From: Roseateles sp. SL47
Lineage (GTDB): Bacteria; Pseudomonadota; Gammaproteobacteria; Burkholderiales; Burkholderiaceae_C
Direction: 5' to 3'
Assembly: GCF_026625885.1 (NCBI RefSeq)
Contig: NZ_CP113068.1
Coordinates: 3,410,001 to 3,474,000, forward strand
DNA length: 64,000 nucleotides
In this document: one piece after another, positions 35,303 to 48,822 of the stretch
How the letters are laid out: each line of letters begins with the position of its first letter
How positions within the stretch are numbered: position 1 is the stretch's first letter
Notes under the pieces: generated by a model
What the model was told of the DNA's origin: nothing
The model's input: the letters and a program-made list of their open reading frames with translations, nothing else
Database searches by the model: none
Program-made: the position numbers and the translations under genes

Positions 35303-35452
35303 ACGGGATGAAGCCGAACCAAACGAAGGTTTGCGTGGTGGCGCGACAGCCTGCCGCTGTTCTTGACCGTTCAGGGGCAGGGTCACGGCCCCGTCACAGA
35401 GCGGTCACGGGCTCGGTCGAGAGTGGCTCGGCATTGATTGCCGGACCCAGCC

Positions 35453-36631
35453 ATGAAGATCACCACGCTGCCCACTGCTTTGCCCGATATGCCCCCGGAG
35501 GCCGAGCACTCGCCACCCGGGGCGTCAGGCGCCATCGCCTTGCGCGACCTGGGCTCCTCGTCCGGGGAATCCGTGCGGACACCGCGTTCTGCCGAAGTGT
35601 CCCCGGTGCCGTTTCGTCGGATGCACTCCGACCCGGGGCTGCCTGTACGGCGTGCATCCGATCCCGGTCCAGCGCGACCCACCGCAGCCGCGTTGGCACC
35701 AAGACAGTCGTTGGACCGGCTCAGAACGGCCCAGACAACGACGTCGGCTACATCGCAGACAACGGCTCTGACGCGCGAGAGCCAAGCTCCGCAACCCGGT
35801 CCCCGTGAGGCCGGCGCACTGAGCTTCTTTGCCATGCAGAACGCCCGCCACGCCGGGCCGGTGGCGGCTGTGCGCACGGTGGTGCAAGGGCTGATCGCTC
35901 CGGAGGTGGCGCGTGCGGTGGCCTCTCATCCCGATGTCGCACTGGGGGCGCAAGTGGCGTTGACCACATGGTCCATGGGCCGACGCATCGTCTCGCAGCT
36001 CCACAGCGAGCGATATGCGGAACAGGCCAACGCCGGCTTCAGCGGGGATGTGAACCGCCAGGGCAACAGCCTGCCGCGCCGGATCTGGCAAGGCGTGCAA
36101 TCCCTGGGCATTGCCGGTGGGGACTTTGCAGCGATGGGGCTCACCATCGCCGCCCGCAGCAATCCCGCCCTGATCGGCGTGGCCCAATCAGCGGCTGCGA
36201 TCCAGGTCATTGCCCATTTGCAGGCGCAGTTCCGCGAGGCATTGCGGCCGGCCACCAACACCGTGCACGTGGGCAACTCGCACGCACCCCAGCCGGCGGA
36301 TGGCCGCAACCTCCGTCCGTCCGATGTGGGAGGGTCGATGAGCGGCACCTTTGGCGCCGCAGCGGCCCTGATCGACCTGCTGGGTCAGATGGCGATTCAA
36401 CGCACCTTGGGTGGGGTTCCGGCCTGGCAGGCGTCACGCGGCCTGGCGGCGGGTGCGGGCGCCGTGGCCGGTGTATCTCAACACCTTTCACGGCATTCGC
36501 CATGTGGACCGCGATCTGATCGAAATGGCCCGCTCCTATGGGCTGAGCGGCTGGAGCCTCTACCGGAAGGTCATCCTGACCGGGGGCGACCGCGTCCATC
36601 CTGGTGGGCCTGCGGTTCTCGCTGGGCTTGA
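35453..36631 (+). pseudogene. Effector-like hypothetical protein, 3' end lost at a junction
   Basis: The reading frame encodes about 340 coherent residues, then about 50 residues of out-of-frame ssuC sequence. Residues 1-125 are disordered and rich in Ser, Pro, Arg and Thr, like the N-termini of type III effectors; residues about 130-340 are Ala/Gly-rich and helical with hydrophobic stretches ([45 protein letters not shown]). No known family is recognised and no PIP-box-type promoter was found. Near 36470 the gene runs into an ssuC fragment, so the original C-terminus is missing. The call of effector is a guess from composition. Confidence 0.5.
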
Positions 36632-36834
36632 TGTGGGTGATGCTGATCGTCGCCGAAACGATTTCCGCGCAGGCCGGGATCGGCTACATGACGATGAATG
36701 CGCGGGAGTTCCTCCAGACCGATGTCGTGCTGGTGGGCATCCTGATCTATGCACTGCTGGGCAAGCTGGCGGACCTGCTGGCCCATGGGCTGGAGCGGGC
36801 ATGGCTGCGGTGGCATCCGGGCTACCAACGATGA
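36468..36834 (+). pseudogene. ssuC: Truncated, frameshifted sulfonate ABC permease ssuC
   Basis: C-terminal part of an SsuC-type permease. Its start reads [20 protein letters not shown], then [17 protein letters not shown], including the EAA loop. One extra A after the Leu codon (near 36580) shifts the frame; reading resumes as [19 protein letters not shown] and runs to LRWHPGYQR and a TGA at 36832-36834. The first half of the gene is absent, replaced by the effector-like gene. The end overlaps the ssuB start (ATGA), as in an intact ssuCB operon. Confidence 0.85.
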
Positions 36835-37820
36835 TGAGCATGACCGATATTGATCTGCTGGTGGAAGTGAATCGGGCGGCCGGCGGGGCGCCGGCGGCGG
36901 CCTCGGAGCGCGAAGCACGTGAACGACCGGAGGGACGTGAAGGCGGTCCCGGCCGTGAGAGCCGTGGTGGGGCGTCGCAGACGCCTGCGGCGGTGAGCGC
37001 CGATGTGCAGCCAGCATGGCTGCAGCGCGCCGGTCCACAGGGCGGTGACGCGATTCACTTGCGGGGGCTGGGCAAGTCCTTCGGTGAACGCCAGGTGCTG
37101 GCCGGCATTGATCTGGACATCCGACCCGGTGAATTTGTGGCGGTGATCGGCCGCAGCGGCTGTGGCAAGAGCACCTTGCTGCGTCTGCTGGCCGGGCTGG
37201 ACCAGCCCACGGCGGGGGAGCTCGACGCCGGGCCGAAGAAGGACGTGCGTTTCATGTTCCAGGATGCGCGGCTGCTGCCCTGGGCCCGGGTGCAGGACAA
37301 CGTGGCGCTTGGGCTTGCAGGCCCGGAGGGGCGCGAACGTGCGGCAGCGGCGCTGGCCCAGGTGGGGCTGGGTGAACGCGGCCCGGAGTGGCCGGCGCGC
37401 CTGTCTGGCGGACAGCGTCAGCGGGTGGCCCTGGCCCGGGCGCTGGTGCATACACCGCGACTGCTGCTGCTGGACGAGCCTCTGGGCGCACTGGATGCGC
37501 TGACCCGCATCGAGATGCAGCGGCTGATCGAGCGACTGTGGCTGCGTCAGGGCTTTACGGCGGTGCTGGTGACCCATGATGTGGCCGAAGCCGTTGCGCT
37601 GGCGGACCGGGTATTGCTGATCGAGCATGGCCATTTGGCGCTGGACCTGCGGATTGATCTGCCGCGGCCCCGCGTCCGCGATGCCGCCTTTGCCGCCCTG
37701 GAGCAACGTTTGCTCGACCGGGTGCTGCAGGTACCCGATGCGGCCGATGTGACACCGCCCTTCGGATCCGCATCGATCCCCTCCGCGATTGCGGCGCCAC
37801 AACTGCGCTGGGCGGTCTGA
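36831..37820 (+). CDS. ssuB: Aliphatic sulfonate ABC transporter ATP-binding protein
   Basis: ATPase subunit of a sulfonate/taurine-type importer, 329 residues with an N-terminal extension of about 75 residues. Walker [10 protein letters not shown] (107-115), Q loop [11 protein letters not shown] (a typical SsuB signature), [15 protein letters not shown] (191-205), [16 protein letters not shown] (Walker B) and switch His in [10 protein letters not shown]. The gene looks intact but its permease partner upstream is broken, so this copy probably cannot support sulfonate uptake alone unless another permease exists elsewhere. Confidence 0.9.
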
Positions 37821-37867: not shown

Positions 37868-37905
37868 AGGCAACTCAGGCAACTCAGGCGAATCAGGCGA
37901 ATCAG
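37868..37905. repeat. 9-bp tandem repeats between convergent genes
   Basis: Two copies of CAGGCAACT followed by two of CAGGCGAAT, ending within the DUF4438 stop region, next to the palindrome GGCCATATGGCC (37906-37917). They lie between the convergent ssuB and DUF4438 genes. Confidence 0.55.
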
Positions 37906-38990
37906 GCCATATGGCCAACATCGTCGGCATGCGCCAGGTCCGTGTCGAAGGCCAGACGCGGCCCGGGCGTTTCCACCGGACGGCATGAGCGCCGCCGTGC
38001 ATCGCGCTCCACCAGCAAGGGCTGAGGCCGCGCGGGCTGGGCCCGCCGCACCTGAAAAATCTCCGCCAGGTTCGCGTCGGGCCGCAGCAATGGTCGCAAG
38101 CAGGCCGCAGGGCCGGTCAGCAGCGGTGTGACGCCGGGGCCATGGCCCGACACCGTGGAGTCACCATGCACGATCACCCCGATGGTGACGCGGCTCTCCC
38201 GATAGATCGGCCCGCGCCGCACATCCGCGCCCACGATGGCCACCATGTCGCCAAAGCGCAGGCTGGTGAGCTTCCAGCGCTCCCGGCTGGGCCGGTCGGC
38301 CAACTGGATGTCGTAGTCGCCGCGCCACGCGGTGTTCTTGCCCAGGCCCGACCCCATCAACCGGGCCGGCACCAGATGGGTCACCGGCACATGCAGCCGG
38401 CCCTCCTGTTCCAGCAGGCCCCAACGCCCCAGCAGCGCCGGGTCGCAGTTCATCACTTCGATCCTGGGATGGCGCAACAGGCGCAGGCCCAGGCCGTGCG
38501 ACCGGATGCCGATGCGATCCCCAATGGCCAGCCGGGCCAGCACGGGTGTGGGGAAGTCCACCATCACATGGTTGACGCCGCCATGCTTGCCGGTGACCAG
38601 GCCGCGCTGCCCCCGGCACCGGCCGTTCAGCACCTCGGCGACATTGCCCACGCAGGCATAGGTGATCAGCGCGGTGTTGGGCCCATCACGCGGGCCGATG
38701 ATTTCGCGGCTGTTGTTGTGCAGGGAGACACCGGGCTCGATGTGGTCCCCGGCCAGGCCCACGCACAGGTCGCCGATGCGGCGGTTCAGCACGATGCCGC
38801 CGGTGCCGGGCAGCACACGCGGCACGCCATCATGACCGATGCGGTAGGGCGCGGCTCCCGCCACCGGATGGGCGATCTGCCCCTGCACCGACACGATCAC
38901 CAGCTCCTGGCTGTTGATGCGGGGGCCGGGCCGGTCCGCGCCGGGGCGCTGCGCGGGGGGCAGGGGGGCTTGGGTGTCACTCCACATCAT
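37902..38990 (-). CDS. DUF4438 domain protein
   Basis: A 362-residue protein with a DUF4438 domain, recognisable from INSQELVIVSVQGQIAHPV, PRVLPGTGGIVLNRRIGDLC, NTALITYACVGNVA and GGVNHVMVDFP. The C-terminal ~60 residues are not conserved with the family as I recall it. The ATG-ATG start at 38990/38987 has a GGAG Shine-Dalgarno and lies within 25 bp of the previous stop. DUF4438 proteins have no established function. It is the last gene of an eight-gene minus-strand set of mostly unknown proteins. Confidence 0.85.
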   Translation of the reverse strand: MMWSDTQAPLPPAQRPGADRPGPRINSQELVIVSVQGQIAHPVAGAAPYRIGHDGVPRVLPGTGGIVLNRRIGDLCVGLAGDHIEPGVSLHNNSREIIGPRDGPNTALITYACVGNVAEVLNGRCRGQRGLVTGKHGGVNHVMVDFPTPVLARLAIGDRIGIRSHGLGLRLLRHPRIEVMNCDPALLGRWGLLEQEGRLHVPVTHLVPARLMGSGLGKNTAWRGDYDIQLADRPSRERWKLTSLRFGDMVAIVGADVRRGPIYRESRVTIGVIVHGDSTVSGHGPGVTPLLTGPAACLRPLLRPDANLAEIFQVRRAQPARPQPLLVERDARRRSCRPVETPGPRLAFDTDLAHADDVGHMA

Positions 38991-39010
38991 CGGTCTCCAG
39001 GCTGGGCCCA

Positions 39011-39898
39011 TCACAACTCATACCACCACAGCCGGGCATGCTGCCAGGGGTCGGGCGGGTCGCAATCCATCCCGGTCAGCACGGAGACGTCGGCCACGTC
39101 GGTGCCGGCAGCCGGGACGTTGGCGGCCACGGCAGCGCCGGAATTCGCGGGTTCCATGTCCAGGCAGACATGCACCGCCGCCAGCGCGGGCAGCCGTTGA
39201 GCCAGCGGTGCCAGGCCGGCACGGGCCAGCGCCTCGCGCAGGAACTGTCGTTCGGCGCTGAACAGGGACTCCGGGAAGACGGCCCCGGCGCCTGTATCCG
39301 TCACCTCAAGGCCCAACTGCCGGGCCAATGCCACCATCGCCGGTTCTCCATCCTGCGTGGCGCTGCACAGGATCAGCGCGCCCTCCAGCACGGCGGACAG
39401 GCTCAGCGCATCCAGCGCCGCCCGATGCAGGTCCAGTCCGCGCCAGGGGGCCTCCATGCCCAGCCCATGCTGCTCCGCGCGCTGCTCCAAGGCAGCCTGC
39501 AGCAGTTCGAACTGATCGAACAGGCTCAGGTCCTCCATATCGCGCAACTGGGATTCCGCAATCCGGTCGCCCACCCAGCGCAGCACCCAGGCACTTTCGT
39601 CCGTTCGCTCGCGCAGTTGAATCCAGCGGCTCAGGGCTTCGGCGCTGATGGCGCCAGCGCTGTGCGCCGCCCGAGGCGCTTGCGCCAGCGGTGCCCCCGC
39701 CGGCCTGGGCGAGCGCCCCATCAACAGCTCGCTGTTGTCCAGCGCCTGCCAGAAGCTGCGGGTGAGCCAGGGCTCGAAAACGGCCACCAGCCGCAGGGCC
39801 AGGGTGGGGCCCTGCGCATGGGTGAGCAGCAGCGAAGGTTCCAGCACGCAGGGCAGCCGCCGTTGGTCAACATGCACCGACACATCCGCGCGCCGCAT
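39011..39898 (-). CDS. Hypothetical protein, unknown-locus gene 7
   Basis: A 295-residue soluble protein of no recognised family. No signal peptide or membrane segment. It has long helical stretches (ISAEALSRWIQLRERTDES, LFDQFELLQAALEQRAEQH), a segment LEGALILCSATQDGEPAMVA and an Ala-rich C-terminus ending RLWWYEL. The start is preceded by GAGGTGACCC. The stop lies just before the DUF4438 start, so the two are probably co-translated. Confidence 0.7.
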   Translation of the reverse strand: MRRADVSVHVDQRRLPCVLEPSLLLTHAQGPTLALRLVAVFEPWLTRSFWQALDNSELLMGRSPRPAGAPLAQAPRAAHSAGAISAEALSRWIQLRERTDESAWVLRWVGDRIAESQLRDMEDLSLFDQFELLQAALEQRAEQHGLGMEAPWRGLDLHRAALDALSLSAVLEGALILCSATQDGEPAMVALARQLGLEVTDTGAGAVFPESLFSAERQFLREALARAGLAPLAQRLPALAAVHVCLDMEPANSGAAVAANVPAAGTDVADVSVLTGMDCDPPDPWQHARLWWYEL

Positions 39899-39949
39899 GG
39901 GTCACCTCTCTTGTTGCGGTCCATCGGGCCAGGCGCCAGATCTTGCGTT

Positions 39950-41032
39950 TCAGGCGGCTTGCGGTACCCCCAGCACGCTTTGCAGGGCCGGCGTCACACC
40001 GGGGAAGCTGCGGCCCTCCGGTGTCATGCGGTAGGCCGCAATCCAGGCCTCCGCATGGGCACCCATCGGCCGCACCACGTTCTGGAACAGGATGGGGTCC
40101 ACGGCCGTCTTGAAGTCGTTGTCCGCCACGAACTGCAGCACGCGGCGTCCGCTTTCCGCCATCTTGGCCCGTTGGGAGGGCTCCGCCACACCGCCCAGGT
40201 AGCGGTTGGAGACGATCTCCACCACGTCCCACTTGGTGTTGGCATCAAAGGCCTTCTTGATGTCGGGGGCGTCCAGCAGCTTCAGCACCTGGATCAGGTA
40301 GTGACCCGTCTCCATCGCCAACGCAAAGATGTTGCCGTAGGTGGAGCGGTCCAGGGCATACCGCAGGTCCAGGCCGATGCGCTGGATGGTGCCCACGCTG
40401 CCGAACGGACGCTGGTCGATGAGCTGGCCGCCGCGGATGACCTCACCGATCAGCAGGTCACGGAAGTACTGGCCCACCGCCACCATGAAGCCGACCACCT
40501 GGCGGTGGAAGTTGCGGTTCACCACCGCACCGGCCGGCGGCTGCGCGGTGCCGTAGTTGAAGGCGCGGCGGTAGGCAATCATCCGGTCGTTGCGGGTGTA
40601 GCGCAGCGGCTTCCACTTCTCCAGCAGGTACAGCCCGCGCGCACCCGGGCCGCGCTGGATGCGCATCTTGCCCAGGCGGAACAGCCGCAGCAACGTCTCC
40701 ACCACTTCGAAGATCTTCATCCGTTCATGCTGATAGATGAAGTACAGCTCGGCGGCCGCATGCAGTTGACTGGGCACCACCGCATCGTCGAAGTCCGGCG
40801 TGACGTAGGGGTAGGCAATCTTGTCGAAACCGACGTTGCCCTGCGGGCCCATGCCCAGCAGGTCGAAGAACCCGCTGTCACTGTCGCCAGCGGATTTGCC
40901 CAGCAGCTCACCGAAGCGCTGCTCGAACTGGGTGGAGAGCGCGCCGCGCTCCTCAGGTGGCAGGCCGGCCACCTGCTCCTGCAGGAAGGTTTCCCACAGC
41001 CGCTGAATGGTTTCGGTAGTCTGGAAGCTCAT
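39950..41032 (-). CDS. Hypothetical protein, unknown-locus gene 6
   Basis: A 360-residue soluble protein of no recognised family. It begins MSFQTTETIQRLWETFLQEQ, has an aromatic helical segment AAAELYFIYQHERMKIFEVV and basic LYLLEKWKPLRYTRND, and closes with GVTPALQSVLGVPQAA. No signal peptide, no catalytic motif seen. An AGGAG Shine-Dalgarno precedes the ATG. Its position between other unknown genes with short gaps argues for a shared operon. Confidence 0.7.
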   Translation of the reverse strand: MSFQTTETIQRLWETFLQEQVAGLPPEERGALSTQFEQRFGELLGKSAGDSDSGFFDLLGMGPQGNVGFDKIAYPYVTPDFDDAVVPSQLHAAAELYFIYQHERMKIFEVVETLLRLFRLGKMRIQRGPGARGLYLLEKWKPLRYTRNDRMIAYRRAFNYGTAQPPAGAVVNRNFHRQVVGFMVAVGQYFRDLLIGEVIRGGQLIDQRPFGSVGTIQRIGLDLRYALDRSTYGNIFALAMETGHYLIQVLKLLDAPDIKKAFDANTKWDVVEIVSNRYLGGVAEPSQRAKMAESGRRVLQFVADNDFKTAVDPILFQNVVRPMGAHAEAWIAAYRMTPEGRSFPGVTPALQSVLGVPQAA

Positions 41033-41121
41033 CTTGCACTCCTGATGTGGCCGGTTGGGGGCGTTGCCTTCGATGGCGTTGCGTGAGGGGGGGGCGTGGA
41101 CGGGGTCGGGGCGGACGGCGG

Positions 41122-42018
41122 CTAACGGCGACCGCTGCGGGGCGCTTTCGCTGCGGCCTTGGCTGCCGGCCTTGACGCCGACTTTGACGCAGACTTCGGC
41201 GCCGACCTTGGTGCCGCTGTTGTGGCCAAGGTCCTGTCAGTGCGGCGCGCGGCTTTGGCCTGGGCCGGAGGGGCGAGTACCTCTGGCAGGGCCTGCGCCA
41301 CCGTGCTGGTGTCCTCCCCATCCGCCCAGGCATGGGTGATGTCCTGTTCCAGGGCCATCAGCTCCCCCAGCCGCTCGCGGCGCGCGGAAGGAGTGATGCC
41401 GAACGCATCACCGGCGAGCAGATCCGAGAGCGCCAGAAAGCGCTTCTGCCAGTCTTCGCCCAGGGCTTCGAGCTGTTCCCAGGCCCCCTGGGTGTCGGGG
41501 TCCTCGCGCCATTCCATCAAGGACTTGTTCACCTCGTCCGCGCTCAGGTCGGTGTCGAGCAGCGGGTCACGCAGGTCATCCAGCGCCCGCAGCACGGCCA
41601 TGGCGCGTTCATCCGGGATGCCTGGTTCCGTGGGGGCGCCCGGTTCCTCATCGTCGTCATCCATGTCCAGGTTGTCGATGGCGTGGACGCAGTCCCTGAG
41701 CGCCACCACCAACGGACCCTGCTCGGACAAGGCGGTGTGAATGTCCACCGCGCTTTGCCCCACGCTCACCGGCACATGGCCGCGCTGGTCCGCCAGCAGG
41801 GTCTTCACCGCGTCGGTCAGGTCGCGGATCTGGGTGGCCAGCGTGGGAGCGTCCTCGTCGCCCACCAGGCGTTCGGCCAGGGTCTGGAAGGTGCCGGTGG
41901 CGGCGTCCCGGTCCATCGACGCTTCGCGGATCAGGGTGCGCCGCGGCGTGGTGAGGACGCGGTCCCGCCACAGGTCGAAGCTGGTGGGCTGCAAGGGGGT
42001 CAACCGGATGCTGGGCAT
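41122..42018 (-). CDS. Hypothetical protein with basic Ala/Lys-rich tail, unknown-locus gene 5
   Basis: A 298-residue protein in two parts. Residues 1-245 are acidic to neutral and helical, with a run DNLDMDDDDEEPGAP near 118-132. Residues about 250-298 are a low-complexity tail of Ala, Lys, Arg, Ser and Pro (SAPKSASKSASRPAAKAAAK), like tails of histone H1-like bacterial proteins. That tail may bind nucleic acid or an acidic partner, and the operon supplies strongly acidic proteins. GGAG Shine-Dalgarno. No family recognised. Confidence 0.7.
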   Translation of the reverse strand: MPSIRLTPLQPTSFDLWRDRVLTTPRRTLIREASMDRDAATGTFQTLAERLVGDEDAPTLATQIRDLTDAVKTLLADQRGHVPVSVGQSAVDIHTALSEQGPLVVALRDCVHAIDNLDMDDDDEEPGAPTEPGIPDERAMAVLRALDDLRDPLLDTDLSADEVNKSLMEWREDPDTQGAWEQLEALGEDWQKRFLALSDLLAGDAFGITPSARRERLGELMALEQDITHAWADGEDTSTVAQALPEVLAPPAQAKAARRTDRTLATTAAPRSAPKSASKSASRPAAKAAAKAPRSGRR

Positions 42019-42093
42019 GGCGGTGCTCCTGGAAGGTATCGGTCAATGGAAGGGCCGGGTCTTGGGGCGCGGGGAGGGGCCTGGCGATGGGGG

Positions 42094-44058
42094 TCAGGGC
42101 TTGAGGGCAATTACCTCCAGCGATTCCTCGTAATGCGGCGGAATGCGCAGTGGCGTCGGCGAGCTGTCGAACGGAATTTCCGCACCGGGGACACCGGCCG
42201 TGGCGGCGGACAGGAAGCCGATGGCCCGATCGACCACCAGGCTGAGACAACCGCTGTCCTCGCTGGGTGTGCCCGGATTGTTGAAGATCCGCTCCACCGC
42301 CACATAGCCGGTGGTCATCTGGCTGACCACGGAGCGCCATTCCTGGTCGGTCTGCTTGATGAGGGCCAGCTCCTCCTTCAGGATGCGGCCGAAGCTGTAG
42401 CCCGAGCCGGAACCGGCCGTCCAATCCTCGTCGCCATGCACCCAGTGGTTGAAGCGGTCCTGCGTGTTGCCGCCTTCCCACCAGGCGCCTTGCAGATAGA
42501 TGCCGGACGGGCGCGGACGCAGCAGCCCGCGCAGGTTGTCCAGCAGGTCGGTGATGGGCTGCTGCTTGCCGACATTGCGGGGCACGTATTCGCCGAGGTA
42601 GGGCGGCCGCGGAATGGAGGGCGACACGGGCGTGGGCCGCCAGGGCCAGTTCTGCACGGCACCGGTCGCCAGCGAGCCCAGGCCCGGCATGGGGTAGGAC
42701 ACGGCTCCGGGGGGCGGCACGGCCAGGGGCTCCGGCAGCACCGCATCCAGCAGCAGGCTGTAGGCGGCGGCACGGGCCTCGGGGACACCGAAGTCCTCGG
42801 TGTCGTTGCCCACGCAGTAGTAGTCGATGGCGCGGTCCAGCGAGAAGAGGATGCTGTCCAGCACCGTCTGGGTGAGCACCCGGTGTTCGTCGCAGGCGCA
42901 CTGGGTGAGGTTGTCCAGCAGACGGGCCAGGGCGCCGCGCAGGTTCACCATCTCCATGAGCCGCAGTTCGGCCTTGCTGATGGTGGCGGACCCATACAGC
43001 CCGTAGTTCAGTACGGTCGGCCGCGCCACGCGCAGCAGGCGGAAGCCACCGGCCTGCGCAAAGCCGCCGAGGAACAGCATCATCGCTTCATGCAGGGCGG
43101 CCAGCTCGGGTGAACTGCGGGCCACCGGCTGCAGGGTGATCTGCACAAACCGGTAGAGGCGGTTGATCGGCGCCCAGGCGGAGGCGCCGATGGACCGCAG
43201 CCCATAAGGCGTGCCGCCACTGGCCAGTTGCACCAGTTGGTCCAGGGTGCGGCTCATTTCCGATTCGCTCATCAGCGAGCGCAGGTCCCCCTGGCCATTG
43301 GCCTCGAACTGCTGACTCAGCGTGCGATAGGCGCGGATGCCCCGTGGCCATTGGCCGGGCTGCGTGGACATGCCGCCCGACCCATCCACCAGCCGCAGCG
43401 CATTGAGCACCGCATCCCGACGGGCCTGCAGCTCGGCATACGATACCTGCAGCAGGAAACGACCGCCGGAGAAACCGATGTTGGCCATGGATTCGCCCAT
43501 CAGCACCAGCAGTACCGCGCTGACTTCATCCAGGCTCAGCGCCAGGGAGCGGAAGTCCCGGTTGAGCTCCGGCTCCAGCGCACCGATCAGGCGGGACAGG
43601 CGTGCGTATTCGCCCAACTGCCGCCGCATGGCAAAGGCGGTGTCCCGCCGCTGCGGGTCCAGCCCCAACCGGGCGCAGGCCACGCCTTCCTCAATGGAAC
43701 GCTGAATGATGGACTGCCAGCCTTCCAGCTCCGGGCGGATGTCCTTGCTGTAGGTGGAGCGCAGCAGCTGGGTCAGGTCGGCTTCCACATCGCTGCGGGC
43801 CTGATCCAGGTCGATGTCGCTGGCGGTCTGCGTCTGCACGCCGGCGGGCCGCACGATGGGTGTCTGCAGGAAGGGCAGGCCGCGTGATTCACCGTCGATG
43901 GCCTGGGCCCGAGGGCTGGCCTGGTAGCGGTCGGCCAGGGCGCGGGCGATCTGCACCGGGTCACTGGGGTCCCCCACCTTCAGCTCGCGCCGCAGCAGGT
44001 TGTCGATGGCGTGGCTGCTGGCCTTGGGATCGGAGGATGACGTCAGGGATGTGGGCAT
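42094..44058 (-). CDS. Large hypothetical protein, unknown-locus gene 4
   Basis: A 654-residue protein, the largest of the locus, of no recognised family. No signal peptide. Mostly helical to residue 400 (for example AVLLVLMGESMANIGFSGGR and NRLYRFVQITLQPVARS), then a Pro/Gly-rich middle (VPPPGAVSYPMPGLGSLA, PRPPYLGEYVPRNVGKQQ) and a more ordered part with WWEGGNTQDRFNHWVHGDED. A Cys pair (CACDEH, about 395) could bind metal. The start follows GAGGTGAACC. Confidence 0.7.
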   Translation of the reverse strand: MPTSLTSSSDPKASSHAIDNLLRRELKVGDPSDPVQIARALADRYQASPRAQAIDGESRGLPFLQTPIVRPAGVQTQTASDIDLDQARSDVEADLTQLLRSTYSKDIRPELEGWQSIIQRSIEEGVACARLGLDPQRRDTAFAMRRQLGEYARLSRLIGALEPELNRDFRSLALSLDEVSAVLLVLMGESMANIGFSGGRFLLQVSYAELQARRDAVLNALRLVDGSGGMSTQPGQWPRGIRAYRTLSQQFEANGQGDLRSLMSESEMSRTLDQLVQLASGGTPYGLRSIGASAWAPINRLYRFVQITLQPVARSSPELAALHEAMMLFLGGFAQAGGFRLLRVARPTVLNYGLYGSATISKAELRLMEMVNLRGALARLLDNLTQCACDEHRVLTQTVLDSILFSLDRAIDYYCVGNDTEDFGVPEARAAAYSLLLDAVLPEPLAVPPPGAVSYPMPGLGSLATGAVQNWPWRPTPVSPSIPRPPYLGEYVPRNVGKQQPITDLLDNLRGLLRPRPSGIYLQGAWWEGGNTQDRFNHWVHGDEDWTAGSGSGYSFGRILKEELALIKQTDQEWRSVVSQMTTGYVAVERIFNNPGTPSEDSGCLSLVVDRAIGFLSAATAGVPGAEIPFDSSPTPLRIPPHYEESLEVIALKP

Positions 44059-44091
44059 GGTTCACCTCGGTGTCGGGATCGTGGGTGGCCG

Positions 44092-45393
44092 TCAGGCGGC
44101 AAGAACGCGGGGATGGGAAGCGGTGGCGGGCGAGGCCAACACGGCACTGGTGTTCTCTCGTCCGATGTCAATCAGTTCGCGGGTGACTCGCTGGGCCAGT
44201 TCGGTGGGGACCACCCGGCCGCCCTCCAGGGCATAGTGGGCGGCACTGACCAGGTGACGCGGTGGCAGTCCGGTCGAGCGGCCTTCACGCAGCGAGGCGG
44301 CACCGTCGCGGATGGCTTCTTCGTCCTCGCGTCGGAAGGGAATCACATCCACCAGGGCGCGTTGGGCCAGGTTGCGCCGCGTCTGGAAGGCAATCTCGTC
44401 CACCACCTCCGGCACCAGGCGCGGCACGCTGCGCACCAGCGCCGGTGGAATGCGGTTCGGACCACCGCTGTTGTAGAGCGTCTGCCAGACACGCAGCAGC
44501 CGCGTGGCATCCCGGGCAAAGCCCAGGCGGCGCATCATTTCGGCGAGCAGGTAGACCCGCAGGTAGGCCGTGGGATGGGCCCCCCCGGGGCGGTAGGTCA
44601 TGGTGCGCGGCGCCGGATGGGCCAGGAAGTCCGCCATGCCCCATGCCGCCGCCGGGCCGCCCAGCAGAATGGCAGCCAGGTCCGCAAAGATCTCCTTGTG
44701 CCAGCGGCCGTAGACCGTCGCGAGGAAGGGGTCCCGCAACTGCCCGATCACCCGACGCACCACCGCCTGGCGGTTCTCCTGCCAGATGCCCAGGTCGGCC
44801 TGCAGGTTGTGCGCCACTTCATGCAGGAAGACGCTCTGCCAGGGCTGATCCCGGTCCCAGGGAATGCGGATCAGCGGGAACGGATTGGCCTCGCCCAGCA
44901 GCCGCGACAGCGCCACACCACGGCGCATGGTGGCCGGCGAATAGCCGTGCTCCATGTAGCACAGCGGCTTGAGCAGGGGCCCATCGAAGATGCGGGGGGC
45001 GGCCTCGCGGACGGCGACATAACAGTCCTGCGCGATGGTGTCGTGGGCACTGAGGGCGGGCCCGAAGCTGGTGCCGCGCTGGGCAAAGACTTCATAGAAC
45101 ATGCCGAACAGCCGCCGGGCCCGGTCCAGCTCACGCTCCACCAACGCCATGTCGATCAGCGTGCGCTGCACCGGTTGTTGGCGCCACTGCTGGCGGAGCT
45201 GGGAGAAACGCGTGCGGATGCGCTGCTCCACCCGGTTCAGCCGCTGGTTGGCCACCCGGAAATGCTCCGGCGACGGCGCATAGGGCTGGTCCTGCGGACG
45301 CAGGCCGACAAACGCGTTGTCGATGCGCGCCAGGCGGCTCATGCGGGCAGCCAGGCCAGCCATCTTGGTCTGCAGGAAGCGGCGGGTGTCCAT
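44092..45393 (-). CDS. HExxH metalloprotease-like protein, unknown-locus gene 3
   Basis: A 433-residue protein with a zinc-peptidase-type motif H191-E-V-A-H195 in QSVFLHEVAHNLQADLG. A second acidic site, HKEIFADLAAILLG (Glu234, Asp238), lies about 40 residues on, the spacing and ExxxD form of gluzincins, so Glu234 is the likely third zinc ligand. No signal peptide is seen, so it would act in the cytosol or be exported another way. The N-terminal 110 residues are strongly basic and helical. Substrates may be neighbours in the same operon. The named peptidase family is unknown to me. Confidence 0.72.
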   Translation of the reverse strand: MDTRRFLQTKMAGLAARMSRLARIDNAFVGLRPQDQPYAPSPEHFRVANQRLNRVEQRIRTRFSQLRQQWRQQPVQRTLIDMALVERELDRARRLFGMFYEVFAQRGTSFGPALSAHDTIAQDCYVAVREAAPRIFDGPLLKPLCYMEHGYSPATMRRGVALSRLLGEANPFPLIRIPWDRDQPWQSVFLHEVAHNLQADLGIWQENRQAVVRRVIGQLRDPFLATVYGRWHKEIFADLAAILLGGPAAAWGMADFLAHPAPRTMTYRPGGAHPTAYLRVYLLAEMMRRLGFARDATRLLRVWQTLYNSGGPNRIPPALVRSVPRLVPEVVDEIAFQTRRNLAQRALVDVIPFRREDEEAIRDGAASLREGRSTGLPPRHLVSAAHYALEGGRVVPTELAQRVTRELIDIGRENTSAVLASPATASHPRVLAA

Positions 45394-45450
45394 GGTGGCG
45401 TCCGTGGCGCGGGTGGGGAGGGCGTTGGCTTCGCGCGTCAGCGTGTGGTG

Positions 45451-46599
45451 TCAGCGGCCGATGGAGATCGTCACCGGGCCCCGCAGGATGCGGATGCGGC
45501 GGCCCCGGCAGGCCGCACACACATGGCGCATGCTGCCGGGACGTCCGGCGGTGACGGCGGTGGAGATCGGCGCACCCACGGCCACCGCACGGCGCACCAC
45601 CGGCGTGACGGTGCGGGCGACCACCCGGGCCGCCTGGCCGCGTGGCGTGGCGCGCCGGGCGGCCGGCACCAGCGGACGTGCCAGGCGGCGCACCGCCTGG
45701 GGACGACGGGCCACCGTCTGGGTGGCACGGCGGACCACACGCACCGCCTGGCGGGCCGGCAGATGGCGGCCCTGCACCACGCGGCGGGTGGCACGCACGG
45801 TACGGGCGACTGCACGAGCGGCCTGTGGGCCCTGGCGGCGCACGGCGGTGCGTACCGCAGTGCTGACGGCCCGCACGGCGGCACGGCGCACCGGGCGGGC
45901 GGCCCGTGCCACGCCGGGCAGGGCGCGACGGATCACCATGCCGGCCAGCACCGGAGCGGCGGCGTCGATGCCATCTTCATCCAGGCCATCCACCAGTTCG
46001 TCAAAGGCCTCGAATTCATCGGCCCCATCGGCCAGCAGGCGGCCCGCAATGTTGGCAATGCGGCCAATGGCCTGCGCCTGCGGAATCGGAATCATGCTGG
46101 CAATCGGGCCCACCACGCGGGCCACCTGGCCCACACCGCGGCCCACTCGACCGGCCACATTCACAGCCCCCCGGGCGAGCCGGGCAATGCGGCGGAAGAA
46201 CTCGTCACCGTCGCCGGCATCCAGGGCGTCGGCCACAGCTTCTTCCATGGCGTCGCCATCGTCGAAGCTGGCAGTGGGGCTGTCATAAGCGTCGCCCTCG
46301 TATTCATCGAAGCCGTCGTCTTCGTCGAATTCATCGGAGGCTTCGAAACCATCCTCTTCATCGAATTCATCGAAGCCATCTCCGCCACCACCACCGCCGC
46401 CCAGCAGACGACCGGCGATGCCGCCGATGCCCCCGAGCAGGCGGCCGATGAACTCGTCGTCGCCTTCGTCACCGCCGTCGGCATCGAAGCCGTCGTCGTC
46501 GTAACTGTCGTCGTCGTAGCCGTCCATCGCACTGCGTGCAGGGCCTTCGGCGGCATCTGCCATCAGGTCTTCCATCAGGTCGGTTTCAAAGCGGTCCAT
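45451..46599 (-). CDS. Charge-segregated Gly/Arg-rich protein, unknown-locus gene 2
   Basis: A 382-residue low-complexity protein with split charge. Residues 1-135 are very acidic (DGYDDDSYDDDGFDADGG), interrupted by DDEFIGRLLGGIGGIAGRLL (about 47-66). Residues about 140-215 are hydrophobic and Ala/Gly-rich. Residues 225-350 are rich in Arg, Ala and Val (RRAAVRAVSTAVRTAVRR). The end has a CAAC pair and the terminal RILRGPVTISIGR. It is paralogous to the frameshifted gene upstream, sharing the DEFIGRLLGG and GPVT-type ends. No family is recognised; a scaffold, condensate or self-assembling role is possible. Confidence 0.7.
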   Translation of the reverse strand: MDRFETDLMEDLMADAAEGPARSAMDGYDDDSYDDDGFDADGGDEGDDEFIGRLLGGIGGIAGRLLGGGGGGGDGFDEFDEEDGFEASDEFDEDDGFDEYEGDAYDSPTASFDDGDAMEEAVADALDAGDGDEFFRRIARLARGAVNVAGRVGRGVGQVARVVGPIASMIPIPQAQAIGRIANIAGRLLADGADEFEAFDELVDGLDEDGIDAAAPVLAGMVIRRALPGVARAARPVRRAAVRAVSTAVRTAVRRQGPQAARAVARTVRATRRVVQGRHLPARQAVRVVRRATQTVARRPQAVRRLARPLVPAARRATPRGQAARVVARTVTPVVRRAVAVGAPISTAVTAGRPGSMRHVCAACRGRRIRILRGPVTISIGR

Positions 46600-46657
46600 G
46601 GTGAGGCTCCAGGAGAAGTTGGAAACAGAGGTAGGGCGGGCGAGAGCTTGCGACGCC

Positions 46658-47951
46658 TCACCGGGGCGAGATGGTCACGGTGACCGGGCCATCGATCTTG
46701 AAGCTGCGGCGGCCCAGCACGGCCTGGCTGCGGCGGCCGCGCCCAGTTCACGCGGGCGTGCCACCGGCGACGGCGGCCGCACGCTGGCCGGCCGGCTGTG
46801 GGTGGCGGGCGGCAGGGCCCGGGGCTGTGCCGCGACGCGCCGGGCGGTGCGCGGCAGCGCCTGGCGCACCCGCTGGGTGGCCTGCTGTGGGGTCGGCGAG
46901 GTGCGGGCGGCCGTGCGTCCAGCGGCATGCGTGAGACGGGGCAGTTGACGGATGGCGCGTGGGTCGCGGCTGCGCATCAGCTCTCGCGCTGCGGAGGCCA
47001 CGCCACGGACCAGCGCCCGGCGCCCGGACTGGCCCAGGTGAGACAGATTGCGGAAGCCCAGCCCGCGGGCGGCGGCACGTGCGGCCATGGCCACCATGCC
47101 GGGCAGCGCTTCATCCACGCCGTCTTCATACAGCTCGGCCATGGCATCGAAGTCATCGAATTCGTCACCGCCCCCGCCGATCAGCTGGCTGAGCTGTGCA
47201 AGCAGGGCCTGACCGCTGCCTGCCGCCTGGCCAAGACCTTGGACGGTCTGCCCGAAACCGGCCGCCGCACGGCCCACGCCCCCGGCAAGGCCACTGGCGC
47301 GCCGTCCGAACTGGGCCGCGCTGCGGGCCCCCGGCTCACGGTGTCAAGGCCGGACGCCAGGCCCGGGGCTCCGAGCAGGCGGGCCAGCCGGGCGGCTGCG
47401 CTGGCTGCCGGCGAGATGCGGCTGGCGACGCGCCCGGCCTGCCCGGCGATCTGGCCGACGCGGCGGGCGCCTCGGGCCACAGTGCCGGCGGTGCGTGCGA
47501 TGCCTTGCACGCCACCGGCGCGCCGCATCAGCATGCCGCCCACCCGGCCCAGGCCGCCCAGCAGGCGCCCGATGAACTCGTCCTCGTCGGCGGCATCCAG
47601 GCCATCGGCGACTTCTTCTTCGAAGGCGCTCCAGAGGTCCATGTCGCCGCCGTCGCCATCGGCGTAGTCGCCATAGTCCCCGGCCTCTGCGGCGTCGGCA
47701 TAGGCATCGCCACTGTCGTAACCATCGGCGCCATCGCTGCCATCGCCATAAGCGAAGGCGTGGGCGCCGCCTTGCGGGGCACCGTCGCCCATGGCGTCCA
47801 TGCCGTCATCCTCGAAACCGTCGGAGGCTTCGAATCCGTCGCCGAGGTTCCCGTCCTCGAAACCGTCGCCGTGCAACATGGCGTCACCACTGTCGGTGGC
47901 CAGGTCACCTTCAAGCGCCAGGTCCTCGGCGCTGTCGAAGGGGTTGAGCAT
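46658..47951 (-). pseudogene. Frameshifted paralogue of the charge-segregated protein, unknown-locus gene 1
   Basis: Three frames are needed to read this gene. From the ATG at 47951 (strong AGGAGG Shine-Dalgarno) the acidic N-terminus and EDEFIGRLLGGLGRVGGML (about 123-141) run to about LASGLDTV near 47345. The frame then shifts to ARSAAQFGRRASGLAGGVG and continues through GGGGDEFDDFDAMAELYEDG and a basic region. A second shift near 46740 leads to RRSFKIDGPVTVTISPR and a TGA at 46660-46658, which matches the end of the paralogue. Without the shifts it would be about 430 residues. It may be a pseudogene or two sequencing errors in GC-rich repeats. Confidence 0.68.
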
Positions 47952-48309
47952 CTTGAACCTCCTGCGGAATGCAATCGCGGCGAAAGCCGCATGGAAGGCA
48001 CTCTAGGCAGCAGGTCGATGGGTCTCAATCCGCGACTTGGCGGGCGCCCGAAGCAGGGCGTGTTGACGCGGTGGCCGATTGGCGGGAGGGGGAATGTGGG
48101 AGGTGGGATGTGGGAGGTGGGATGTGGGAGCGGGAATGTGGGCGTTCGTTGAGGGCCAGCCGTGTACACGTCCGCAAATGAGGGTAGTCACGTGCGGGGG
48201 ACTGTGCGGGGGACTGTTACACGGCATACCCCCAATCTGAAGATGTACGTTAGCGAGGGTAGGGAATCACAATCGCGCCCCTGATCCCTTCGGGTTGGAG
48301 CATCTGCTC
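47952..48309. promoter_or_regulatory. Divergent promoter region with tandem repeats
   Basis: 358 bp between the unknown locus and its divergent LuxR-type regulator. It contains about 3.5 units of a 13-15 bp repeat, consensus GATGTGGGAGGTGG (48092-48142), the perfect palindrome CGTGTACACG (48161-48170), and two perfect 12-bp copies of GTGCGGGGGACT (48192-48215). These are candidates for regulator binding sites controlling the eight-gene operon. Confidence 0.5.
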
Positions 48310-48822
48310 ATGATGGAACTCGATCTCCCCCCAGCGGCCACGGGTGACCGCTGCAGCACCCTGGAACTGCATGGGCGCCGCTACACGGTGCTGTGCGTCG
48401 ATGGACTGACGCCTCGCCAGCAGAGCCGCCCCGGCCAGGCCCGACCGCGCCATGTCTATCACGGCGCCGAACTGGTCCATTTTCAGTTGGGCGACCATCG
48501 ATATGTGCTGGTGCCGGAGGACAGTGCGGGGGACGCTCCCGCATCGTCGGCCGCGATGCCAGACGGCGACGCTGCGGGCGAACGCACCGGTGATCTGCGG
48601 CGCCTGCTGACGCATCGCGAACTTCAGATTGTTCAGCTGATCTGCCTTGGGCTGCTCACCAAGCAGGTGGCAGACCGATTGCACCTGAGCGAGTTCACGG
48701 TGCGTTCTTATCTCAAGACCATTTATTGCAAGCTGGGTGTGCGTTCGCGCGGTGCGATGGTGTTTGCATATGCCAGCGCTTTTGGGGTGGCGCCGCCTGC
48801 GGGATTGGTGGAGGGCGCATGA
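48310..48822 (+). CDS. LuxR-type transcriptional regulator
   Basis: A 170-residue regulator. The N-terminal ~90 residues are an unrecognised domain (LHGRRYTVLCVDGL, HVYHGAELVHFQLGDHRYVL) without a receiver aspartate; a short linker follows, then a LuxR helix-turn-helix (about 101-160: LLTHRELQIVQLICLGLLTK, then EFTVRSYLKTIYCKLG). The ATG at 48310 has a GGAG Shine-Dalgarno 9 bp upstream. It is divergent from the unknown locus and is its likely regulator. Confidence 0.82.
   Translation: MMELDLPPAATGDRCSTLELHGRRYTVLCVDGLTPRQQSRPGQARPRHVYHGAELVHFQLGDHRYVLVPEDSAGDAPASSAAMPDGDAAGERTGDLRRLLTHRELQIVQLICLGLLTKQVADRLHLSEFTVRSYLKTIYCKLGVRSRGAMVFAYASAFGVAPPAGLVEGA

Follow-up and report, generated by a model that had tools for sequence, protein, structure and literature searches.

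A 64,000-nt stretch of the Roseateles sp. SL47 genome (positions 3410001–3474000 of a single-contig, 6.39-Mb genome; hereafter the window) carries a minus-strand operon, genes A to H, beside a LuxR-type regulator gene. Comparison with related loci reveals a conserved core (A/B, C, D, F, usually E, G and H) beside a LuxR-type regulator, and its recurring order, found in 45/45 loci from four phyla, is more than chance. In other hosts, small variable genes, several of them toxin-like and hereafter called cargo, occupy fixed slots of the operon, and part of their products share an acidic N-terminal motif with A/B. We tentatively interpret the operon as encoding a cargo system for harmful enzymes, built of several proteins and made in the cytoplasm, a reading to which we give somewhat less than an even chance. 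The interpretation is based on the preserved core and order, an invariant zinc site in protein C, enzyme genes in the slots, the motif in part of the cargo, and the joint absence of operon and LuxR gene from some relatives. The first-pass annotation of the window had put the operon forward as a candidate undescribed system, and this proposal is supported: the neighbourhood is strongly conserved, and no named system appeared among the matches listed from family libraries, solved structures and the literature searched (most subscription papers and all preprints lay outside the search). The finding is more interesting than that annotation stated: the operon spans phyla, with toxin-like cargo and a candidate targeting peptide. 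The variable cargo of other hosts and the sharing of the N-terminal motif lay beyond the reach of the annotation.

The operon runs from 47951 to 37902 in window coordinates, and its genes are transcribed in the order A (frame-broken), B (382 aa), C (433 aa), D (654 aa), E (298 aa), F (360 aa), G (295 aa) and H (370 aa). The intergenic gaps between the listed open reading frames (ORFs) are 75, 57, 33, 75, 89 and 51 bp, none above 89 bp, and G and H overlap by 4 bp, in agreement with the earlier description of a minus-strand gene run with gaps of at most about 90 bp. The Shine-Dalgarno sites noted there are also present, in that several starts are preceded by Shine-Dalgarno-like stretches when read by eye. 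The earlier count of eight genes holds if two ORFs at the 5′ end are taken as one gene, as they are in relatives; the frame break was not reported. Specifically, the place of gene A (46675–47951, minus strand, as are all the operon genes) is covered by two overlapping ORFs in different frames, 47951–47181 (256 aa) and 47277–46675 (200 aa), both of which match within one frame in four Roseateles loci (L006–L009), L006 having a single 433-aa ORF there. Judged by these one-frame counterparts, gene A is frame-broken in the window, through either a sequencing error or decay into a pseudogene. The divergent regulator gene (48295–48822, plus strand) encodes a C-terminal GerE helix-turn-helix and matches GerE/LuxR in Pfam (E = 1.7e-13), as annotated.

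Among the ten proteins of the operon and its regulator, only H and the LuxR-type regulator exceed Pfam cut-offs, and A to G have no match above them, consistent with the annotated lack of a recognised family for the remaining large proteins. In NCBIfam and PHROGs, the LuxR protein gives the sole convincing match, all others being weak. PADLOC matched the LuxR helix-turn-helix alone, through two CARF models, and recognised no known anti-phage defence family among these proteins. Relatives of solved structure were found for H alone, and none for C, D, F or G. A gene order preserved across four phyla is rare when one of its proteins, F, stays 55–90% identical among the aligned relatives and yet matches no known family, and when neither a solved relative nor a paper turned up in the searches.

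A scan of genomes with F yielded 67 loci, of which the 45 with at least 5.5 kb before and at least 4 kb after F, several closely related to each other, were used for conservation counts. Apart from F, the search anchor, A/B, C and D were each found in 44 loci, H in 43 and G in 42. In every locus, those that occur follow one and the same order. The check for co-occurring neighbours proposed with the first-pass annotation therefore gave one order in 45/45 loci of Pseudomonadota, Cyanobacteriota, Myxococcota and Planctomycetota. G was undetected in L059 and L066 (Myxococcota) and in L072, which also lacks detectable A/B, C and D, and H was undetected in L047 and L069. A LuxR-type gene was matched in 44 of the 45 loci, lying downstream on the operon strand in 28, upstream and divergent as in the window in 14, and downstream on the opposite strand in 2. 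F (39950–41032) is the most conserved core protein: across 40 aligned relatives its identity to window F is 55–90% and 73 positions are invariant, and among the closest Roseateles the identity is 98–99%. G (39011–39898) is variable, and E (41122–42018) is fast-evolving: an ORF of at least 148 aa occupies its place between D and F in 36/44 relatives, and similarity to window E is detectable only in the four closest Roseateles loci. The protein collection contains at least 806 F-like, 469 D-like and 378 B-like proteins; among the best 120 of each, two B-like proteins are named serine/threonine kinase by their source, and the other named ones are 'hypothetical' or 'uncharacterized'.

The operon is patchily distributed. 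F is present in 5/40 related genomes, all five among the 16 genomes of the genus, and in 3/398 genomes drawn from the phylum, the own genome being included in both counts. In G006 and G002, two members of the genus that lack F, the matching flanks are separated by 1.6 and 2.3 kb, respectively, and neither the operon queries nor the LuxR query hit the fetched stretch; the left flank could not be located in the fetched stretch of G015 or G008. Because both are missing between conserved flanks in G002 and G006, the operon and its regulator seem to have been gained or lost jointly. Ranked by F, the closest relatives that carry a name are Roseateles, plus a bin called Rubrivivax. Carriers of the operon include Roseateles depolymerans (L008) and a Cupriavidus necator strain. 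For C, D, F, G and H, the rankings by distance correlate with one another at 0.65–0.88, a range for which shared ancestry alone would suffice. In the F tree, Cyanobacteriota and Myxococcota are each cohesive and Pseudomonadota require two changes, a topology compatible with or without inter-phylum transfer. The F protein of L019, a bin labelled Methylotenera, is nearly identical in the tree to that of L018 (Roseateles puraquae), which reflects either a recent transfer or a mis-binned contig.

In other hosts, the extra, changing genes occupy the slots between F and G, between G and H, and between H and the LuxR gene. Those read encode proteins of roughly 100–360 aa, and unrelated hydrolase types recur in the same slots on the same strand. 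Pfam supports trypsin-like proteases (L039, 1e-10; L027, 3.6e-8; L055, 8.3e-7), an Ntox5 protein (L032, 4.8e-18) and, below cut-off, an M35-like protease (L026, 5.4e-5). Others look by eye like GIY-YIG, HNH and restriction-type nucleases, without Pfam support. The trypsin-like genes fall in an ORF cluster that spans 22 loci and the GIY-YIG-like genes in one that spans 12; these are chained clusters, and not all members were read.

Proteins A and B belong to one family, A with an acidic N-terminus followed by an Arg-rich region. Gene B (45451–46599) encodes an N-terminal motif, FETDLMEDL (46564–46590), an acidic stretch, glycine-rich patches, an Arg-rich region and a C-terminal GPVTISI. The same layout is found in relatives, with a start motif such as FETDVMDDL, followed in many by EGPA, and a C-terminus like GPVTITI in most sequences printed out. 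The glycine-rich and Arg-rich stretches look membrane-active, and judging by composition the window A/B proteins may themselves be effectors.

The motif of A/B is common to part of the cargo. We used 34 distinct A/B N-termini to build a position profile and scored it on unseen cargo over the first 110 residues, as starts are uncertain, with 224 mechanically called, unannotated flanking ORFs as the comparison set. Cargo was hand-picked from the gap ORFs (n = 38 for the profile; n = 36, with L019 and L025 omitted, for a regular expression). Near-copies (L030, L052–L054, L056, L058, L060 and L067) and the nuclease-like ORFs of L047 and L049 were left out, as were ORFs judged to be in a wrong frame or unrelated (the methyltransferases of L041 and L042, and the alcohol dehydrogenase and LysR of L059). 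The score exceeds the 95th percentile of the flanking ORFs (4.5) in 16/38 cargo. The 99th percentile of block-shuffled cargo (14.5) is exceeded by an HNH-like protein (20.3), the M35-like protein (18.5), a protein of one unknown family (18.2) and the Ntox5 protein (15.7), and is reached by one trypsin-like and one nuclease-like protein. The regular expression, which was drawn up after the data were seen, matches within 60 residues in 15/36 cargo against 12/224 flanking ORFs, and within 110 residues in 17/36 cargo, against a mean of 2.6/36 and a maximum of 8 in block shuffles. Furthermore, a degenerate DNA pattern of the motif has 13 matches in 16 genomes, against one for the reversed control; placed by coordinates, 11 coincide with A/B starts, one with that of the M35-like cargo gene, and one lies in a genome without F. 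The strict motif is thus rare outside the operon in these 16 genomes, and in the window A and B are the only carriers detected. At the other end of the cargo, the residue F followed by D or E occurs within the last six residues in 11/36 cargo against 3/224 flanking ORFs, a count devised post hoc (for example L010:11094–11552, L013:11100–11591, L021:11138–11995, L026:12094–12693 and L043:13093–13728).

Gene C (44092–45393) encodes the sequences HEVAHNLQ and KEIFAD, with the HEVAH zinc-binding motif (residues 191–195) at 44809–44823. Residues H191, E192, H195, E234 and D238 are invariant in 28/28 aligned sequences, so that the conserved HExxH and the downstream acidic ligand of a zincin are both present at the sequence level. 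C is probably an active zinc protease, in keeping with its annotation as an HExxH protease-like protein. Alignment of C with eCIS_core by hhalign gave a probability of 4% over 20 columns around HExxHxxQ alone.

D (42094–44058) and F, the 654- and 360-residue proteins for which structure prediction had been suggested, both give all-helical models (mean pLDDT, the predicted local distance difference test score, of 78 and 77, respectively) without a significant structural match; in addition, no HK97-type shell or encapsulin family is matched by Pfam in the operon. H (37902–39014) contains N- and C-terminal DUF4438 domains, scoring 178 and 153 bits in Pfam (cut-offs 24.9 and 27; E = 8.8e-53 and 3.7e-45), which bears out its annotation. 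It is a near full-length relative of TM1086 (E ~1e-66 to 3dcl and 3n99), a protein crystallised with 5 and 30 chains, to which the depositors assign no function. These chain numbers may hint at oligomers, which would be a likeness to bacterial microcompartments. The word DUF4438 occurs in no paper of the literature searched.

From these features, we infer how the proposed cargo system could assemble, be loaded, be processed, be released and find its target. D, F and H, together with E and G, would form a particle or scaffold. The N-terminal motif would bring in A/B and cargo, much as other particles are loaded by means of short N-terminal peptides, and C would cut A/B or cargo for maturation or release, perhaps close to the EGPA found after the motif in many A/B. 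The load would act after lysis or along some unknown route, its targets being competitors or the producer itself.

Several observations weigh against this proposal. Most of the cargo tested (22/38) scores below the flank threshold, including 5/5 Burkholderiales nuclease-like and 6/9 trypsin-like proteins, and some hits above threshold sit beyond residue 30. For the core genes the 95th percentile is 8.1, core protein F reaches 12.5, and acidic composition alone carries shuffles up to 14.5 at their 99th percentile. The slots hold no cargo-like gene in the window, in other close Roseateles, in Aromatoleum, in Burkholderia or in Pseudomonas R5. The F and D models have no significant structural match, no immunity gene was recognised (no systematic search for one was made), and neither an export apparatus nor a membrane protein was recognised in the operon. 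The window copy itself has no recognised cargo gene and a frame-broken gene A, and for these reasons it is not the best one for study.

The lack of membrane parts would also fit a purely intracellular enzyme compartment or condensate. Here the charge-segregated A/B proteins would condense and an N-terminal helix would recruit hydrolases, which would stay sequestered until stress or phage attack and act inside the producer, without export. Hydropathy found no membrane-type segment or signal peptide in the window products (the top 19-residue mean is 1.79, in G), Pfam, NCBIfam and PHROGs gave no secretion family, and no membrane secretion component or ATPase is matched by Pfam within the operon, the rest of the genome not having been searched for them. 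A/B pair a short motif with an acidic low-complexity stretch, and PMC12339742 describes the encapsulation peptides of microcompartments as short helices on disordered linkers that are linked to condensation. We nevertheless consider this explanation unlikely, as none of the operon genes is assigned by Pfam or PADLOC to a microcompartment, encapsulin or defence family, and a dedicated protease and Ntox5-type cargo suit deployment at least equally well.

A slightly less probable explanation is that the core serves as a conserved complex for housekeeping or stress and that unrelated hydrolase genes have inserted next to it as passengers. Conservation is indeed higher in the core than in the cargo, cargo is absent from several hosts, and the shuffle control indicates that the motif may be barely more than a generic acidic N-terminus. 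However, presence in 5/16 genus genomes and 3/398 phylum genomes is unlike housekeeping, unrelated hydrolase types recur in the same slots and on the same strand, and the A/B profile selects part of the cargo.

We disfavour, as very improbable, an accessory operon that supplies effectors or their maturation to an extracellular contractile injection system (eCIS) located elsewhere in the genome: sheath-like and eCIS_core matches occur in 16/16 genus genomes searched, PMC3482391 lists Ntox5 with the Photorhabdus virulence cassette (PVC) route, and C too has the HExxHxxQ signature, but only 5 of those 16 genomes have the operon, 15/40 operon-bearing genomes, some of them cultured strains, have no sheath match (assemblies partly incomplete), the alignment of C with eCIS_core is limited to the signature, and the motif is acidic and conserved, unlike the slightly positive, disordered eCIS signals without conserved sequence described in PMC11297309. 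Outside the window, the own genome has eCIS_core and sheath-like matches ~19 kb apart (C1:4101257–4120782); the presence of both kinds of match in all 16 genus genomes searched suggests that a contractile system is common to the genus.

Returning to the cargo system, distant F relatives in L073 (a Paraburkholderia plasmid) and L122 adjoin C and, by eye, A/B-like proteins; D, G and H were undetected there. Two plasmid clusters, L074:10561–21779 and L075:6278–22435, have a distant F-like protein beside S8 proteases and are possibly another unnamed system. L074 also encodes a peptidoglycan-binding protein, and L075 an amidase/papain-like fusion and several mutually similar proteins of 360–480 aa without known family. 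It is conceivable, and on balance doubtful, that the operon encodes a new class of toxin-carrying particle beside contractile injection systems and microcompartments: a phylum-spanning machine without membrane parts that loads toxic enzymes through a short acidic N-terminal signal, matures them with its own zinc protease and releases or delivers them under LuxR-type control. In that case, the distant clusters (L073, L122, L074 and L075) would be further branches of one superfamily. Left of the operon in the window, a Ser/Pro-rich protein frame at 35438–36840 lies beside a partial ABC-permease-like stretch (~36411–36840), followed by an ABC ATPase gene (by eye); it looks like a disrupted permease gene.

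The operon shares individual features with several known systems. Like eCIS with eCIS_core (DUF4157) effectors, it combines varied toxin-like cargo, a candidate N-terminal loading signal, a probable protease with HExxHxxQ and wide environmental spread. It differs in that the ten window proteins include no sheath, tube or baseplate family (Pfam, and PHROGs above chance level), C is not detectably eCIS_core (no Pfam match), and the motif is acidic and conserved; a sheath match is found in 25/40 operon-bearing genomes, with assemblies partly incomplete. Polymorphic toxin systems likewise have variable toxin genes in fixed slots, Ntox5 included, a likeness seen in the relatives and not in the window, whereas the cargo here consists of small separate ORFs and not of the C-termini of large exported proteins. 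Bacterial microcompartments (BMCs) also place short, apparently helical N-terminal peptides on unrelated enzymes, the candidate counterpart here being the acidic motif shared by part of the cargo; unlike them, the operon has no BMC shell-domain match in Pfam, and its cargo is protease- or toxin-like rather than metabolic. If the cargo reading is correct, the operon would widen the known means by which bacteria package toxic enzymes, among them proteases and nucleases, and would include a portable targeting peptide. At the level of single proteins, H resembles TM1086, and the operon provides the DUF4438 family with the first functional context found for it.

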